Of a stretch of 64,000 nucleotides of DNA, positions 11,747 to 18,060 are shown one piece after another. The notes beneath the pieces were generated by a model. The model made no database searches. It was not told the origin of the DNA and worked only from the letters and a program-made list of their open reading frames with translations. The stretch covers positions 1 to 64,000 of the forward strand of contig NZ_VCCH02000017.1 of the NCBI RefSeq assembly GCF_005938675.2, given 5' to 3'. Origin of the DNA: Mycobacterium sp. KBS0706. Its GTDB lineage: Bacteria > Pseudomonadota > Alphaproteobacteria > DSM-16000 > Inquilinaceae. Both the position numbers and the translations under genes were made by a program. The stretch's first letter is position 1; every line of letters starts with the position of its first letter.

Positions 11747-13945
11747 CTACAGCACGAAATCGGCCGCGGCGGCCGCAGCGCCGTTGGCCAGCACGATGCG
11801 GAAATCGGCGACGCCGTCGCCGTTCACATCGGCCTCGACCACCCCGGCCGCCGAGCGCAGCTGGCCGCGGACGGCAGAGAAGCCGGCCCCGCCGATGAAG
11901 GTGAAGGCCTGGTTGCCATCCGCCCCGATGTTGTTGGCGTCGATTTCCGACAGGTCGAACTTGTCGAAGCCGCTGACGAAGTCGGCGACGCTGTCGATCT
12001 TGGCGCCGGCCACCCAGGAATCGAGCACCGAGCCGTAGCGCATCGTGTCGTTGCCGGCGCCGGCGGTGATGGTATCGGCCCCGCGGCCGCCGCGGATCGA
12101 ATCGGCCTCGGTGCCGGCGTCGATCTTGTCGTCGCCCAGCCCGCCATCGATCGAATCGGCGCCGGCCCGGCCGTTCAGCGTGTCGGCGCCGATGTTGCCG
12201 CCGATGGTGTCGCCGGCGCTGCTGCCGCTGAAGGTCACCGTCTCCATGTTGTAGGCGTCGACATAGAAATTGCCGCTGTTCGACCGGACCTGGAAGCTCG
12301 GCGAGCCGCCGGCGAACAACTGCACCGCCAGGGTCTCGGCCGAGGCGTCGACCACCAGCGCATCGGTGCCCGCCTGGCCATCGACCACGTCGACCCCGGA
12401 CCCCGCCGCGGTCGGCCGGATCCTGGCGTTGATGCTGTCGTTGCCGGCCCCGGTGGTGATGCTGTCGGCCTGGGACCCGCCGACGATGGCGTCGTTGCCG
12501 GCGCCGGTGATCAGTTTGATGCGCTCGAGCCCGAGGATCGAGGTCAGCCCCGCCGCCGCGATCGACGTCGTGGTCCCCAGCGTGAAGGCCACGCTTGAGA
12601 CCAGCCCGCTGAGATCGGCGTCCCAATGATCGATGCCCGCGCCGCCATTCACCGTTCCGCCGCGGGTGCCGGTCTGGATGAAGTCGGCCCCCGCGCCGCC
12701 GGTGAAGGCCACCGTCTCCATGTTGTAGGCGTCGACGTAGAAATTGCCGGAGTTCGACCGCAGCTGGAAGGTCGGCGACCCGCCGGTGAACAGCTGCACT
12801 GCCTGGGTTTCGGTGGCGCAGTAGACGACCAGGGTGTCGCTGCCGGCGCCGCCGTCGACCACATCGACCCCGGATCCCGGCGCCGTCGGCCGCAACCTGG
12901 CGTTGATCACGTCGTTGCCGTTGCCGGTGTTGATGGTGTCGGCCTGGGTACCGCCGATGATGTTGTCGTTGCCGCTGCCTGTGGTCAGCGTCAGGCGTTC
13001 GAGGTTGAGGATCGAGGTCAGCCCCGCCGCAGCGATCGAGGTCGTGGTCCCCAGCTGGAACGCCACGCCCGAGATCAACGCGCTGAGGTCGGCCTCCCAG
13101 TGGTCGATGCCGGCGCTGCCGTCCACCGTGCCGCCGCGGGTGCCGGTCTGGATGAAGTCCGCGCCGGAGCCGCCGGTGAACTTGATCACCTCCATATTGT
13201 AAGCATCGACGTAGAAATTGCCGGAGCTCGACCGCACCTGGAAGGTCGGCGACCCGCCGGTGAACAGCTGCACCGCCTGGGTCTCGGCCGCGGCGTTGAC
13301 GATCAGGGTGTCGCTGTCCAGCCCGCCATCGACCACATCGACCCCGGACCCGGCCACCGTCGGCCGCGTCCTGGCGTCGATGACATCGTTGCCGTCGCCG
13401 GTGTTGATGCTGTCGGCCTGGGCACCGCCGGTGATCGTGTCGTTGCCGGCGCCGGTGGTCAGGCTGATGCGCTCGACGCTGAGGATCGAGCTCAGCCCGG
13501 CCGCCGCGATCGACGTCGTGGTCCCCAGGGTGAAGGTCACGCCGGTGAACAGCCCGCCCAGATTGGCGAGCCAGTGGTCGATGCCGGCGCCGCCATTCAC
13601 CGCGCCGGAGCGCTCGCCGGTATCGATCGAATCGTTGCCGGAGCCGCCGGTGAAGTTCACCGCCTCCATGTTGTAGGCGTCGACGTAGAAATTGCCGGTG
13701 GTCGAGCGGACCTGGAAGGTCGGCGACCCGCCGGTGAACAGCTGCACCGACTGGGTCTCGCCGGAGCAATTGACCACCAGCGTGTCGAAGCCCGTGCCGC
13801 CGTCGACCACGTCGACGCCGGAGCCGGGGGCGGTCGGCCGGGTGCCGGCATTGATGGTGTCGTTGCCGCCCAGTCCGTTGATCGTGTCAGCGGCGCTGGT
13901 CCCGACCAAATTGTCGGCGCCGTTGGTGCCATTGATGACTGCCAT
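11747..13945 (-). CDS. RTX-like calcium-binding repeat protein (158-aa repeats)
   Basis: A 732-aa acidic secreted-type protein. GGxGxDxUx nonapeptides (for example GGNDTINAG, GAGNDTITGG, GRGADTITAG) bind Ca2+ in beta-rolls, and the C-terminus ends in the hydrophobic ADFVL expected of type I secretion signals, after a serralysin-type tail (DFVSGFDKFDLSEIDAN, QAFTFIGG). The body is not ordinary RTX: a 158-residue unit recurs exactly every 474 bp. Each unit contains a non-RTX block (VQLFTGGSPTFQVRS, GNFYVDAYNMEAVNF) and an Asp/Trp segment (GGAGIDHWLANL, GTTTSIAAAGL). GGGGAGAG precedes ATG 13945. No type I secretion genes are nearby. Function unknown. Confidence 0.82.
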   Translation of the reverse strand: MAVINGTNGADNLVGTSAADTINGLGGNDTINAGTRPTAPGSGVDVVDGGTGFDTLVVNCSGETQSVQLFTGGSPTFQVRSTTGNFYVDAYNMEAVNFTGGSGNDSIDTGERSGAVNGGAGIDHWLANLGGLFTGVTFTLGTTTSIAAAGLSSILSVERISLTTGAGNDTITGGAQADSINTGDGNDVIDARTRPTVAGSGVDVVDGGLDSDTLIVNAAAETQAVQLFTGGSPTFQVRSSSGNFYVDAYNMEVIKFTGGSGADFIQTGTRGGTVDGSAGIDHWEADLSALISGVAFQLGTTTSIAAAGLTSILNLERLTLTTGSGNDNIIGGTQADTINTGNGNDVINARLRPTAPGSGVDVVDGGAGSDTLVVYCATETQAVQLFTGGSPTFQLRSNSGNFYVDAYNMETVAFTGGAGADFIQTGTRGGTVNGGAGIDHWDADLSGLVSSVAFTLGTTTSIAAAGLTSILGLERIKLITGAGNDAIVGGSQADSITTGAGNDSINARIRPTAAGSGVDVVDGQAGTDALVVDASAETLAVQLFAGGSPSFQVRSNSGNFYVDAYNMETVTFSGSSAGDTIGGNIGADTLNGRAGADSIDGGLGDDKIDAGTEADSIRGGRGADTITAGAGNDTMRYGSVLDSWVAGAKIDSVADFVSGFDKFDLSEIDANNIGADGNQAFTFIGGAGFSAVRGQLRSAAGVVEADVNGDGVADFRIVLANGAAAAAADFVL
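12384..13805 (-). repeat. 474-bp tandem repeats within the RTX-like gene
   Basis: The codons for GSGVDVVDG recur with anchors at about 13805, 13331, 12857 and 12383, an exact 474-bp (158-codon) period. This gives three complete units and a fourth whose second half has diverged into ordinary nonapeptide repeats. The exact period implies tandem duplication without indels. Confidence 0.88.
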
Positions 13946-14101
13946 GAAATGACTCTCCCCAAGGCCAGCGGCCCGCCAGTGCCGTCGAAACTGCTCGCGG
14001 CCCCCGGTCTGAAAGGGATGGGCTCACCTGTGCCATGGTGACATCATACGCCCGAACATCATGGTATGCGTAGATTTGCCTAAAATTTTTTGCATCCGGA
14101 A

Positions 14102-14128
14102 ATGACCGGTTGCGGCCCATCCGGTCAT
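14102..14128. promoter_or_regulatory. Inverted repeat between the RTX gene and tau operon
   Basis: Arms ATGACCGG (14102-14109) and CCGGTCAT (14121-14128) are perfect complements with an 11-nt spacer. It lies in the 574-bp divergent intergenic region and could serve either direction. No regulator gene is adjacent. Confidence 0.4.
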
Positions 14129-14180
14129 AAGGCCAGGAGGGCAGTCCTTGAAGTATATAACCTGCGGAACGTGTGATTTA

Positions 14181-14209
14181 TTCAACAACCGTGAAGCGTT
14201 GTTGTTGAA
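14181..14209. promoter_or_regulatory. Inverted repeat upstream of tau leader
   Basis: Arms TTCAACAAC (14181-14189) and GTTGTTGAA (14201-14209) are perfect 9-bp complements separated by 11 nt, in an AT-rich stretch (14145-14215) that probably holds the tau promoter. It is compatible with an operator for a sulfur-responsive regulator (CysB/Cbl-type activators are known for tau genes elsewhere). That assignment is inference. Confidence 0.4.
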
Positions 14210-14321
14210 TCCTGTTGACTTAATCCGGGCGGCTGTGAAAACCTGTGTCCTGTCGATCCTGTCCGGGATCGCGCCGCGGCAATTTTCTGTGAAGCTTGCG
14301 CCGCGTCACCAAACGCTAAGC

Positions 14322-14341
14322 ACCACGACCGGGTTCGTGGT
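14322..14341 (+). promoter_or_regulatory. Hairpin just before the leader-peptide ribosome-binding site
   Basis: ACCACGA (14322-14328) pairs perfectly with TCGTGGT (14335-14341) around a 6-nt loop. It ends three bases before the GAGGAG (14345-14350) of the candidate leader peptide and could contribute to post-transcriptional control of the tau mRNA. Confidence 0.35.
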
Positions 14342-14359
14342 CTCGAGGAGTCGAAGCCC

Positions 14360-14401
14360 ATGTCTGCCTTCTGCGATCCCGGCTGTTGCGGCCAAGCCTG
14401 A
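14360..14401 (+). CDS. Candidate cysteine-rich leader peptide upstream of tauA
   Basis: A 13-codon ORF encoding MSAFCDPGCCGQA with a stop at 14399-14401. GAGGAG (14345-14350) stands 9 nt before the ATG, as strong as the sites of annotated neighbours. Three of 13 codons are Cys, two adjacent, 118 nt upstream of a sulfonate-uptake operon. Cysteine-rich upstream ORFs that sense Cys-tRNA supply are known in front of sulfur genes in some bacteria (for example CCC-motif uORFs in mycobacteria). This one is a candidate seen only in this sequence. It is out of frame with tauA. The remaining intergenic DNA 13946-14359 holds the three inverted repeats listed and no other gene I can support. Confidence 0.5.
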   Translation: MSAFCDPGCCGQA

Positions 14402-14519
14402 GCCCCGCCGCTTCCCCCATTCCATAACGGCGCCCCGGCCGACTGATCCGCGCTCCCTGACCGGGTTCGATGCGCGACCGGCCCTGCGTGTGCGCCTGTT
14501 CGTTCGAGGACTATCCCGA

Positions 14520-15524
14520 ATGTTCGTCCAGATCCTGCGATGGTCCCTGCTGGCCGGTGCGGCCGCCGTGGTCATCGGCAACTACGCCCGGGCCGCGGAG
14601 CCGCTGACCATCGGCTACCAGAGCACGGTTGAGCCGGCCAAGGTGGCGCAGGCCGACGGCCTGTACGAGAAGGCGATCGGCCGCCCGATCGAATGGCGCA
14701 AATTCGACAGCGGCGCCGACGTCATCGCCGCCATCGCCTCGGGCGGGGTGCAGATCGGCTATGTCGGGTCCAGCCCGCTGGCCGCCGCGGCCAGCCGCGA
14801 GCTGCCGGTCCGCACCATCCTGGTCGCCATCGGCATCGGCGACGCCGAGGCGCTGGTGGTGCGCAACGGCGCCGGCATCGCCAAGCCGGCCGACCTGGCC
14901 GGCAAGGCCGTGGCCGTGCCCTTCGTCTCGACCACCCATTACAGCCTGCTGGCGGCGCTGAAGCATTGGGGCATCGACCCGGCCTCGCTCCGCATCCTGA
15001 ACCTCCGGCCGCCGGAGATCGCGGCGGCCTGGCAGCGCGGCGACATCGACGCCGCCTATGTCTGGGACCCGGCGCTGGGCAAGATCAAGGAGACCGGCAC
15101 GGTCCTGGTCACCTCGACCGAGGTCGCCGGCTGGGGCGCGCCGACCTTCGACGCCTGGATCGCCCGGGCCGACCTGATCGCGGCGGATCCCGCGGCGGTG
15201 CAGGCCTTCGCCGATGTGACCCTGAAGGAATACGCCGCCTATCGCGCCGATCCGAAGGCGTGGAGCGCGGAGTCGGAGCAGGTCGCCAAGATCGCCAAGC
15301 TGACCGGGGCGAAGCCGGAGGAGATCCCGGCGTTGCTGCAGGGCAGCGTCTTCCCGGTGAAGGCGGAGCAGGCCGGGCCGGCCCTCTTGGGCGGCGGCAC
15401 GGCCAAGGCGATCGCGGACACCGCGACATTTCTGAAGGAGCAGGGCAAGATCGACCAGGCGCTGGAGGATTATGGCGCTTACGTCGACGCCCGTTTCGTC
15501 GCCGCGACCACAGCGACGAACTGA
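14520..15524 (+). CDS. tauA: Taurine/aliphatic sulfonate ABC transporter, substrate-binding protein TauA
   Basis: A 334-aa periplasmic binding protein of the TauA/SsuA family. Signal peptide [20 protein letters not shown] ends near ARA-AE (about 23-25). The mature protein starts [18 protein letters not shown], with [29 protein letters not shown] and [11 protein letters not shown], which line the sulfonate pocket in this family. GAGGA lies about 10 nt before ATG 14520; a longer in-frame opening upstream lacks coding character. First gene of tauABCD, with tauB 20 bp downstream. Confidence 0.93.
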
Positions 15525-15544: not shown

Positions 15545-16324
15545 ATGTCGGTTCTGGCGGTGGAGGCCGTTTCGGTGACCTACCCTGCGGCGGATGGCGA
15601 CATCCGCGCGCTGGACCGGATCACCCTCGCGATCGAGCCGGGCGAATTCGTCGTCGCCCTCGGCCGGTCGGGATGCGGCAAGACCACGCTGTTGAACCTG
15701 ATGGCGGGCTTCCTGGCCCCCGAGGCAGGGACGGTCACACTCGGCGGCGTTCGTGTAACCGGACCTGGGGTGGAGCGGGGCGTCGTCTTCCAGGACGACG
15801 CCCTGTTCCCCTGGCTTGACGTGCTGGGCAATGTCGGCTTCGCGCTGCGGCTGCGCGGCATTCCGCCGGCCGAGCGCGACGACCGGGCCCGGCGCATCCT
15901 GCGGCTGGTCGGGCTGGAGGGCTTCGAAGGGCAGCGGCTGTGGGAGCTGTCGGGCGGCATGAGGCAGCGGGTCGGCCTCGCCCGGGCGCTGGCCGCCGAC
16001 CCCGAGGTGCTGCTGCTGGACGAGCCGCTGGGCGCGCTCGACGCGCTGACGCGGGAGCGGATGCAGGAGCTGCTGCTGGACCTGTGGCACCGCACCGGCA
16101 AGAGCCTGTTCCTGATCACCCACAGCATCGAGGAAGCCCTGTTCCTGGCGACCCGGCTGGTGGTGATGTCACCGCGGCCCGGCCGCATCGTGGAGGAGCT
16201 GCGGCTGGATTTCGGCCGCCGCTACTGTAGCGGCGAGCCGGCGCGCCGGATCAAGTCCGACCCCGGCTTCATCGCCCTGCGCGAGCAGGTGATGGACCTG
16301 ATCTTCGAGCGCGAGGCGGCCTGA
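15545..16324 (+). CDS. tauB: Taurine ABC transporter ATP-binding protein TauB
   Basis: A 259-aa ABC ATPase of the nitrate/sulfonate/taurine (NitT/TauT) importer group. Walker A is GRSGCGKTT (about 40-48), the Q-loop is [14 protein letters not shown], the signature [16 protein letters not shown], Walker [13 protein letters not shown], and the switch His lies in [18 protein letters not shown] precedes ATG 15545. It energises import by TauC with TauA; the next ATG is one base past its stop. Confidence 0.95.
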
Positions 16325-16325
16325 C

Positions 16326-17165
16326 ATGGCCGATGTCGCGCTCCAGAAACCGGCGCCTGCCGATGCCCGCACGGCGCCGATCGCGCGGCGCCGCGGCAAG
16401 GGCCGCGGGACGCGGCTGATCAGCCTCGCCACGGTGGCGGGCCTCCTCCTGATGTGGGGGCTCGTCTCCAATCTCGGCCTCGTCCCGCCCCTGTTCCTGC
16501 CGACGCCGCAGGCGGTGCTCGGCAAGCTGGTCACCACGGCCTCCGTCGGCTTCGCCGACGTGACGCTGCTGCAACATCTCGCCGCCAGCCTCGGCCGCGT
16601 CTTCGCCGCCCTGGCGCTGGCGCTGGTGGTCGCGATTCCGGTCGGCATCGCCATCGGCACCAGCCGGGTGGCGCGCGGCATCCTGGACCCGCTGATCGAG
16701 TTCTACCGGCCGATCCCGCCCTTGGCCTATCTGCCGCTGATCGTGATCTGGTTCGGCATCGGCGAAACCTCGAAGGTCCTGGTGATCTTCCTGGCCATCT
16801 TCGCCCCGATCGCGATCTCGACCGCGGCCGGGGTGCGCGGCGTGCCGTCCGACCGGCTGCGCGCCGCCCGCTCGCTGGGCGCCACCCGGGCCCAGCTGCT
16901 GCGCCATGTCATCCTGCCGAACGCGCTGCCGGAGATCCTGACCGGGGTGCGCATCGGCCTCGGCGTCGGCTGGTCCACCCTGGTGGCGGCCGAGCTGGTC
17001 GCCGCCACCAGCGGCCTCGGCTTCATGATCCAGAGCGCGGCGCAGTTCCTGGTCACCGACGTGGTGGTGCTGGGCATCCTGGTGATCGCCGCCATCGCCT
17101 TCCTGCTGGAAGTTCTGCTGCGCCTGCTGCAGCGCCGGCTGACGCCCTGGCACGGGCGCGGCTGA
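16326..17165 (+). CDS. tauC: Taurine ABC transporter permease TauC
   Basis: A 279-aa inner-membrane permease of the BPD_transp_1 family with six predicted TM helices after a basic N-terminus ([10 protein letters not shown]). The EAA coupling loop reads [26 protein letters not shown] in two halves typical of TauC/SsuC (about 177-203), and [20 protein letters not shown] is a strongly conserved segment. Its ATG follows the tauB stop by one base, indicating translational coupling. Confidence 0.94.
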
Positions 17166-17211: not shown

Positions 17212-18060
17212 ATGCCCGACAGCCTGTCGACCCTCCTCTCCGTCCAGCCGCTGAACCCTGCCATCGGCGCGGTGCTGCGCGGCATCGATCTGGCGCAGCC
17301 GCTGGGCGACGCCACCATCGCCGCGATCAACCGCGCTTTGCTGCAGCACCATGTGCTGTTCTTCGAGGGCCAGGAGCTGAATCCGGCGGCGCAGCGCGAC
17401 TTCGCCGCCCGCTTCGGCACGCTGCACGTCCATCCGGTCTATCCGCACGTCAAGGAGGTGCCGGAGATCATCATCCTCGACACCCATCCGGACAACCAGC
17501 CGGACAACGACAACTGGCACACCGACGTCACCTTCATCGAGACCCCGCCGCTGGGCGCGGTGCTGGCGGCGAAGCAGCTGCCGCCCTTCGGCGGCGACAC
17601 CAGCTGGTCCAGCAGCACCGCCGCCTTCGAGGCGCTGTCGGCGCCCTGGCAGGCCTTCCTGACCGGGCTGACGGCGCTGCACGACTTCGCCAGATCCTTC
17701 CCGCCGGAGCGCTTCACCGCGCCGGAGGAGCGCGAGCGCTGGCAGATCGCGCGCGACAAGAACCCGCCGGTGATCCACCCGGTGGTGCGCACCCATCCGG
17801 TGACCGGCCGCAAGGGGCTGTTCGTCAACGAGGGCTTCACCACCCGCATCCTCGGCTTCTCGGCCAAGGAGAGCGACGCGGTGCTGCGCTTCCTGTTCGA
17901 CCATGTGGCGAAGCCGGAATTCACCGTGCGCTGGCGCTGGAAAGCGGGCGACGTCGCCTTCTGGGACAACCGCTGCACCCAGCACTACGCCCTGGCCGAC
18001 TACCTGCCGAACCGGCGGGTGATGCACCGGGCGACCATCCTGGGCGATAGACCAGTCTGA
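17212..18060 (+). CDS. tauD: Taurine dioxygenase TauD
   Basis: A 282-aa Fe(II)/2OG dioxygenase that hydroxylates taurine at C1; the product breaks down to sulfite and aminoacetaldehyde. Iron ligands H103 and D105 (WHTDVTF) and the distal His in the NRCTQHYA block (about 258), with the 2OG-binding Arg in HRATI (about 273), are all present. Length matches E. coli TauD. GAGAGG precedes ATG 17212. It closes the tau operon, giving both uptake and desulfonation; the converging sugar permease gene ends 13 bp away. Confidence 0.94.

Follow-up and report, generated by a model that had tools for sequence, protein, structure and literature searches.

Cysteine leader peptides of actinobacteria were reportedly the subject of work by Canestrari in 2020. 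In these bacteria, short ORFs with Cys codons near their stop occur before sulfur genes, and in many cases no terminator is visible (Seliverstov, 2005; PMC1262725). A Rhodobacterales uORF located before cysS, uORFC-8-2, contains two tandem Cys codons and has been proposed to act as an attenuator (PMC8632094), while in the case of CruR of Bordetella, copper binding to CXXC relieves arrest and permits Rho termination (PMC9426467). The SAM_alpha (SAM-II) riboswitch has been reported in Rhizobiales and Rhodobacterales only, with metY as its core target (Leyn et al., 2014; PMC4239095). In Sinorhizobium (S. meliloti) metA, a SAM-II aptamer is followed by a terminator region and by a distant translation start, AUG1/AUG2 (PMC9373788). 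The core of the SAM-V riboswitch is nearly superimposable on that of SAM-II; its nucleotide A50 contacts SAM at the amino-acid end, and replacement of A50 by inosine severely reduces SAM binding (PMC6061858). Within the open-access literature we found no description of a SAM-II-related element combined with a Cys leader, or of either of them in tau operons.

The locus described here lies in a window of 64,000 nucleotides, the whole stretch of DNA that was analysed, and consists of a tauABCD operon preceded by an RNA element related to SAM-II and by a short ORF with Cys codons (Table 1). We think it on balance probable, if only narrowly, that this tau leader is a tandem sulfur-status sensor, in which a SAM-II-derived, aptamer-like RNA is combined with a Cys-codon leader peptide. 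The initial annotation had named the operon correctly, as all four genes have NCBIfam profile matches, and reading and translating the sequence bore out its ORF, the GAGGAG site at proper spacing and the 118 nt to the tauA ATG. The spacer is partly conserved, with TTCCATAACGGCGCCCCGGCCG, or a close match to it, present in each of the five Inquilinus species compared. Since a scan for -35/-10 promoters found none, transcription of the whole element is an assumption. Just 5′ of a TTGACT at 14215, an inverted repeat (CAACAAC/GTTGTTG, 14183-14204) forms a possible operator; upstream of tau, some other Inquilinus seem to have a comparable repeat. Further upstream, the minus strand of 11747-13945 carries a 732-aa ORF with repeated GGSGNDxIxTG-like motifs, which resembles calcium-binding repeat proteins of the RTX type. 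A second Cys-rich frame (14470-14607), overlapping the tauA start in another frame, stays open in five of five Inquilinus species and was set aside for its weak ribosome site and variable Cys.

Table 1. Features of the tau leader and operon, in positions of the window.
Feature	Position	Strand	Remarks
SAM-II-related RNA element, tau-type variant, about 82 nt	14267..14348	+	whole element; model R2, 84.4 bits; sister copies match RF00521 below threshold at 20-28 bits
Helix P1 (14275-14280 with 14300-14305) and loop L1	14275..14305	+	read from sequence
U-strand AAUUUU	14281..14286	+	GAUUUG in canonical SAM-II; role by SAM-II/SAM-V structure (PMC6061858)
Pocket strand GCUAAG	14315..14320	+	GCUAAA in nearly all other elements; G14320 is the counterpart of SAM-V A50
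Hairpin P3, 7-bp stem, A14322-T14341 to A14328-T14335	14322..14341	+	read from sequence
Shine-Dalgarno GAGGAG of the leader ORF	14345..14350	+	9 nt before ATG; invariant across five Inquilinus species
Leader ORF MSAFCDPGCCGQA	14360..14401	+	translation; frame, start, stop, Cys-5 and Cys-9 kept in five species
Spacer, leader stop to tauA	14402..14519	+	118 nt; without terminator-like hairpin
tauA, taurine ABC transporter substrate-binding protein	14520..15524	+	TIGR01729, 440 bits
tauB, ATP-binding subunit	15545..16324	+	NF008421, 365 bits
tauC, permease	16326..17165	+	NF007545, 373 bits
tauD, taurine dioxygenase	17212..18060	+	NF007104, 459 bits

A search of the same genome with the tau leader returned two partial copies, both of which contain AGCTTGCGCC(C)GCGTCACCAAMCGCTAAAGCGCCACGA-loop-TCGTGG and then a short ORF preceded by a Shine-Dalgarno sequence. 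In the first copy (C58) the leader ORF MVSTLPPPFLSAVPRIGMCRACRCC is followed by a small gene and metQ, and in the second (C449) the leader ORF MTRTVLCSPFAHRPTAAAPMRCRRA is followed by metN, metI and metQ; five further genomes of the genus Inquilinus hold two or three elements each. At most of the sister loci scanned, RF00521 (SAM_alpha, SAM-II) is a recurrent sub-threshold Rfam match of 19-32 bits (gathering cut-off 36; the exception is L102 with 36.8), aligning P1, GAUUUGA, GCUUGC and CGCUAAAG. The tau leader alone, scanned over 13900-14800 at E up to 1, gave no RF00521 match and only a weak, unrelated one to RAGATH-16. Seven genomes of the order, this one included, have canonical SAM-II copies above the cut-off at other loci. 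The conserved RNA element is a relative of the SAM-II riboswitch. A GCUU/AAGC stem, the first fold given to the shared motif, was dropped in favour of P1 and a pseudoknot after the SAM-II match appeared.

A covariance model derived from the sister elements (R2, used at E up to 0.001, its E-values being rough) matched 82 of 387 alphaproteobacterial genomes. When it was applied as a control to 313 kb around 80 tauA genes, strong matches lay solely upstream of tauA, and 71 of the 80 nearest tauA loci had no detectable element. The genes 3′ of the elements are sulfur genes, encoding MetN, MetQ, a sulfate-binding protein, and SsuA-like, TauD-like and rhodanese-type proteins. Over 111 distinct sequences, aligned using the model's own structure, which favours P1/P3 pairing, 98.8% of the cells of both helices were paired, with both-side changes in 9 of 11 pairs; the covariation score was reached by none of 500 shuffles, and slid controls were only 26-40% paired. 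Taken singly, P1 has both-side changes in three of its five modelled pairs (99.8% of cells paired) and P3 covaries in all six. The 7-bp hairpin noted initially at 14322-14341 is present, but it forms the last helix of an element that begins at about 14267 and does not stand alone as an attenuator stem. In the elements with GCUAAA, the pocket strands (A)UUUG, UUGC and GCUAAA are conserved and L1 pairs with the strand 3′ of P3 to form P2a; its strict-register run averages 3.85 vs. at most 3.54 with swapped partners, and a loose, free-register test of the same pairing was not significant. For the GCUAAA elements SAM is the predicted ligand.

Two side observations concern the sister loci. On the minus strand of L051 (G009:C80), tandem SAM-II-like elements at about 1508-1581 and 1639-1715 precede an O-acetylhomoserine sulfhydrylase-like gene, and similar pairs occur at L252, L253, L254, L257, L261, L239, L240, L242, L264 and L206. 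Often, a small conserved ORF (about 63-80 codons, IEVxxxxAGxxxRExGGFxF) separates the leader peptide from metQ or tauA (L325:1095-1304, L108, L114, L117, L328:448-636 and others); the one copy checked had no Pfam match.

Elements upstream of tauA were also found in Arenibaculum, in one alphaproteobacterial metagenome-assembled genome (MAG) and in four Kaistia species. Tau elements of every one of these lineages, as of Inquilinus, carry GCUAAG, and the base after UUU is C or U in all of them except Kaistia soli (U in the window copy), vs. GCUAAA and, nearly always, UUUG in the compared non-tau elements. The window element thus has AAUUUU and GCUAAG in place of the SAM-II pocket strands UUUG and GCUAAA. 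No P2a pairing was found by reading the sequences of the Inquilinus tau leaders, and its strict-register run averages at most 1 in two other tau elements. On account of these pocket strands and of P2a, we do not count the tau element among the SAM-II riboswitches. GCUAAG is not exclusive to tau, an idea that was dropped because an element before a sulfate ABC transporter gene (L326, G524:C42) also has a tau-type pocket, AAUUUC with GCUAAGC. A search for the exact tau-type pattern in 385 genomes returned the window's own copy only, which makes tau-type elements rare in this set; a second tau-type copy in Arenibaculum had no clear downstream gene.

The change at the end of the pocket strand bears on the ligand. 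Guanine and inosine carry the same 6-oxo group. With SAM-V numbering transferred by motif alignment, not by a structure, the counterpart of A50 is a G, and since this G has inosine's 6-oxo group, the tau element is predicted not to recognise SAM in the normal manner; probably, either its affinity for SAM is low or it binds a different ligand. That the tau element derives by decay from a SAM-II aptamer and has no ligand left, its helices being retained as a fixed structural spacer 5′ of the leader ORF, is somewhat unlikely. The G at this position and the absent P2a would fit such decay, as would the Kaistia elements, in which no P3 was recognised, but five Inquilinus species are identical in P1, the U-strand, UUGC and GCUAAG, all of which the Arenibaculum, MAG and Kaistia tau elements share as well, and under unconstrained decay the same two changes would not have become fixed. 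The TauA proteins of these lineages are near relatives of each other, so that the change to GCUAAG may come from a single ancestor. Tentatively, and as a less likely reading, we also put forward a more specific proposal, in which the joint changes of G to Y after UUU and of A to G after GCUAA would mark a SAM-II-derived riboswitch whose specificity has shifted to another adenosine-containing sulfur metabolite, placed in series with a Cys-codon leader peptide that would read a second sulfur pool. The tau subset, with its matched changes at pocket contact positions, would allow a direct test of a change of riboswitch ligand.

Turning to the leader peptide, the tau ORF keeps its start, stop, frame and Shine-Dalgarno sequence in five Inquilinus species, with one in-frame insertion of 36 nt. 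The three Cys codons that had been pointed out, two of them adjacent, are not equally retained: all five species have Cys-5 and Cys-9, but the second of the adjacent pair, Cys-10, is present in two and replaced by Arg in three. A lack of conservation of the ORF or of its Cys codons in orthologous leaders, the outcome that the initial annotation had named as speaking against its proposal, did not occur. Comparison across species gave a conserved ORF and, family-wide, a covarying P3; the substitutions in the tau ORF are mostly non-synonymous. Of the 35 ATG ORFs in the window that follow a Shine-Dalgarno sequence and span 8-30 codons, 4 contain three Cys or more, so the tau ORF is unremarkable as a single sequence and becomes significant by comparison. 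These counts would suit a functionless short ORF that carries three Cys by chance in GC-rich DNA, an explanation we regard as extremely improbable, contradicted as it is by conservation at the genus level and by the family-wide Cys enrichment described below. Cys also occurs in the other tau leaders (peptide ends are given here up to the stop codon): a 32-aa ORF in Arenibaculum, MTFDTSAPAVRRRSCLSHTSVTTPGMCRGSCR, with the end GMCRGSCR; MSNLCSCCRPA in the MAG; and MTTRLC, MTNRLC or MTERLC in Kaistia.

For the family as a whole, leaders were defined as starting at the first ATG that lies shortly 3′ of the element and is preceded by GGAG, GAGG or AGGA, with at most 50 codons (n = 60). Cys makes up 10.6% of their residues, vs. 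3.6% in shuffles (maximum 5.4%). It is present within the last six codons of 48 of the 60, vs. a mean of 12 and a maximum of 23 in shuffles and vs. 11 and 4 in the other two reading frames; with one leader taken per family, 12-13 of 17 families have Cys near the stop, where about three are expected. Leader ends such as MCCSCGC, TCCCRT, MCTGCR, CRCRCRT, CAACCCRR and GTCC illustrate this pattern. Among three Inquilinus classes, leader lengths vary by whole codons only, and most other spacings do not. The Cys-leader idea is well supported at the family level, since terminal Cys is so much more frequent than in any shuffle. Two sister elements of another genus of the same order (L050, L066) are followed by leader ORFs free of Cys, so that conservation is stronger for the RNA element than for the Cys codons, and the short frame after the tau-type element of the sulfate transporter also lacks Cys. 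An unlikely explanation is that the RNA element alone regulates, the leader ORF being a by-product or a mere ribosome landing site and Cys mattering in some relatives only; the Cys-free leaders and the amino-acid changes in the tau ORF speak for it, but it leaves unexplained the Cys enrichment at leader ends and the Cys retained in independent tau leaders. It is very unlikely that the peptide is a nascent-chain sensor of metal or thiol state in the manner of CruR. Cys does cluster at the peptide end, and a uORF of this type, with a Cys motif and Rho dependence, is known (PMC9426467), but the number and spacing of Cys are very variable (MTTRLC, MCRACRCC, GTCC, RCRCRT, GCCCCN), a Cys that is the final residue would not yet have left the active site of the ribosome, nothing like a RAPP arrest motif is present, and the genes are sulfur genes.

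Downstream of the leader, the evidence differs between tau and some of its relatives. The several pairing options noted initially in 14402-14519 are not above chance, as RNA of 14300-14525 folds no better than shuffles (z +1.15); z is +0.76 around the tau leader stop, and no terminator or antiterminator is visible in the tau leader. The proposed Cys-sensing leader of tauABCD is thus supported by the conserved Cys ORF of the genus, by Cys in independent tau leaders and by family enrichment, but not by an attenuator structure. Around leader stops of the family, folds are mildly stronger than those of shuffles (mean z -1.1; 14 of 53 below -2), and three metN leaders (L102, L104, L225) have a GC-rich hairpin and CTTTT(T) directly after a leader ending in RCRCRT, which looks like a classical transcription attenuator. 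Because the tau leader lacks a terminator, we propose, as a guess, Rho-dependent control.

The two-part sensor that we favour would operate as follows. An aptamer-like RNA of SAM-II descent, with P3 as an added 3′ hairpin and an altered pocket, stands in front of a short leader ORF whose Cys codons lie near the stop. Under a shortage of charged Cys-tRNA, a ribosome translating the leader would be slowed at the Cys codons near its end and would keep the downstream RNA covered or open, so that tauABCD would be expressed; when cysteine, which we infer to be the signal for the tau leader, is plentiful, the ribosome would complete the leader and depart, the spacer would be exposed to Rho or to structure, and tau expression would be lowered. 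The upstream element would set, by its ligand, the frequency of entry into the leader ORF, this ligand being presumed to be SAM for the GCUAAA elements. Such a sensor is supported by the element common to the tau, metQ and metNIQ leaders of one genome, by the same layout before tau in Arenibaculum, the MAG and Kaistia, by the sulfur genes downstream, by the recurrent RF00521 match, by P1/P3 covariation, P2a pairing in GCUAAA elements, leader Cys enrichment and whole-codon leader lengths, and by the GC hairpin and U-run after the Cys codons of the three metN leaders. We count against it the tau leader without terminator or unusual structure, its mostly non-synonymous substitutions and unretained Cys-10, the Cys-free leaders (L326 included), the missing promoter and the tauA loci without the element. 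If the proposal is true, a single leader monitors sulfur metabolism on the methionine/SAM side as well as on the cysteine side. SAM-II-related elements not called by the public RNA library are present in at least 51 of 264 sampled alphaproteobacterial genera, and many of these elements are followed by a leader that ends in Cys.

Compared with SAM-II (RF00521), the new elements share P1, the U-strand (A)UUUG, GCUUGC and the GCUAAAG core, with P2a covarying in GCUAAA elements, as well as the sulfur and methionine gene context; they differ by P3, inserted 3′ of the GCUAAAG core and ahead of the 3′ strand of P2a, and by scores of 20-37 bits, nearly all below the gathering score of 36, and the tau type differs further by GCUAAG for GCUAAA and, usually, UUUY for UUUG. 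As in S. meliloti metA, the aptamer lies far 5′ of the gene start, but metA has no separate Cys-coding leader peptide. CruR likewise has a Cys motif in an upstream ORF, but it is a 145-residue exported DUF2946 protein with a fixed CXXC and RAPP, none of which is seen here. uORFC-8-2 is also an alphaproteobacterial Cys-codon uORF, but it is limited to cysS, has its own terminator and has no SAM-II part. The actinobacterial cysteine leaders resemble those described here in their short ORF, stop-proximal Cys codons, sulfur genes and often invisible terminator; unlike them, the ORFs of the present family have a Shine-Dalgarno sequence and a SAM-II-related element in front, and the genes that follow are transport operons.
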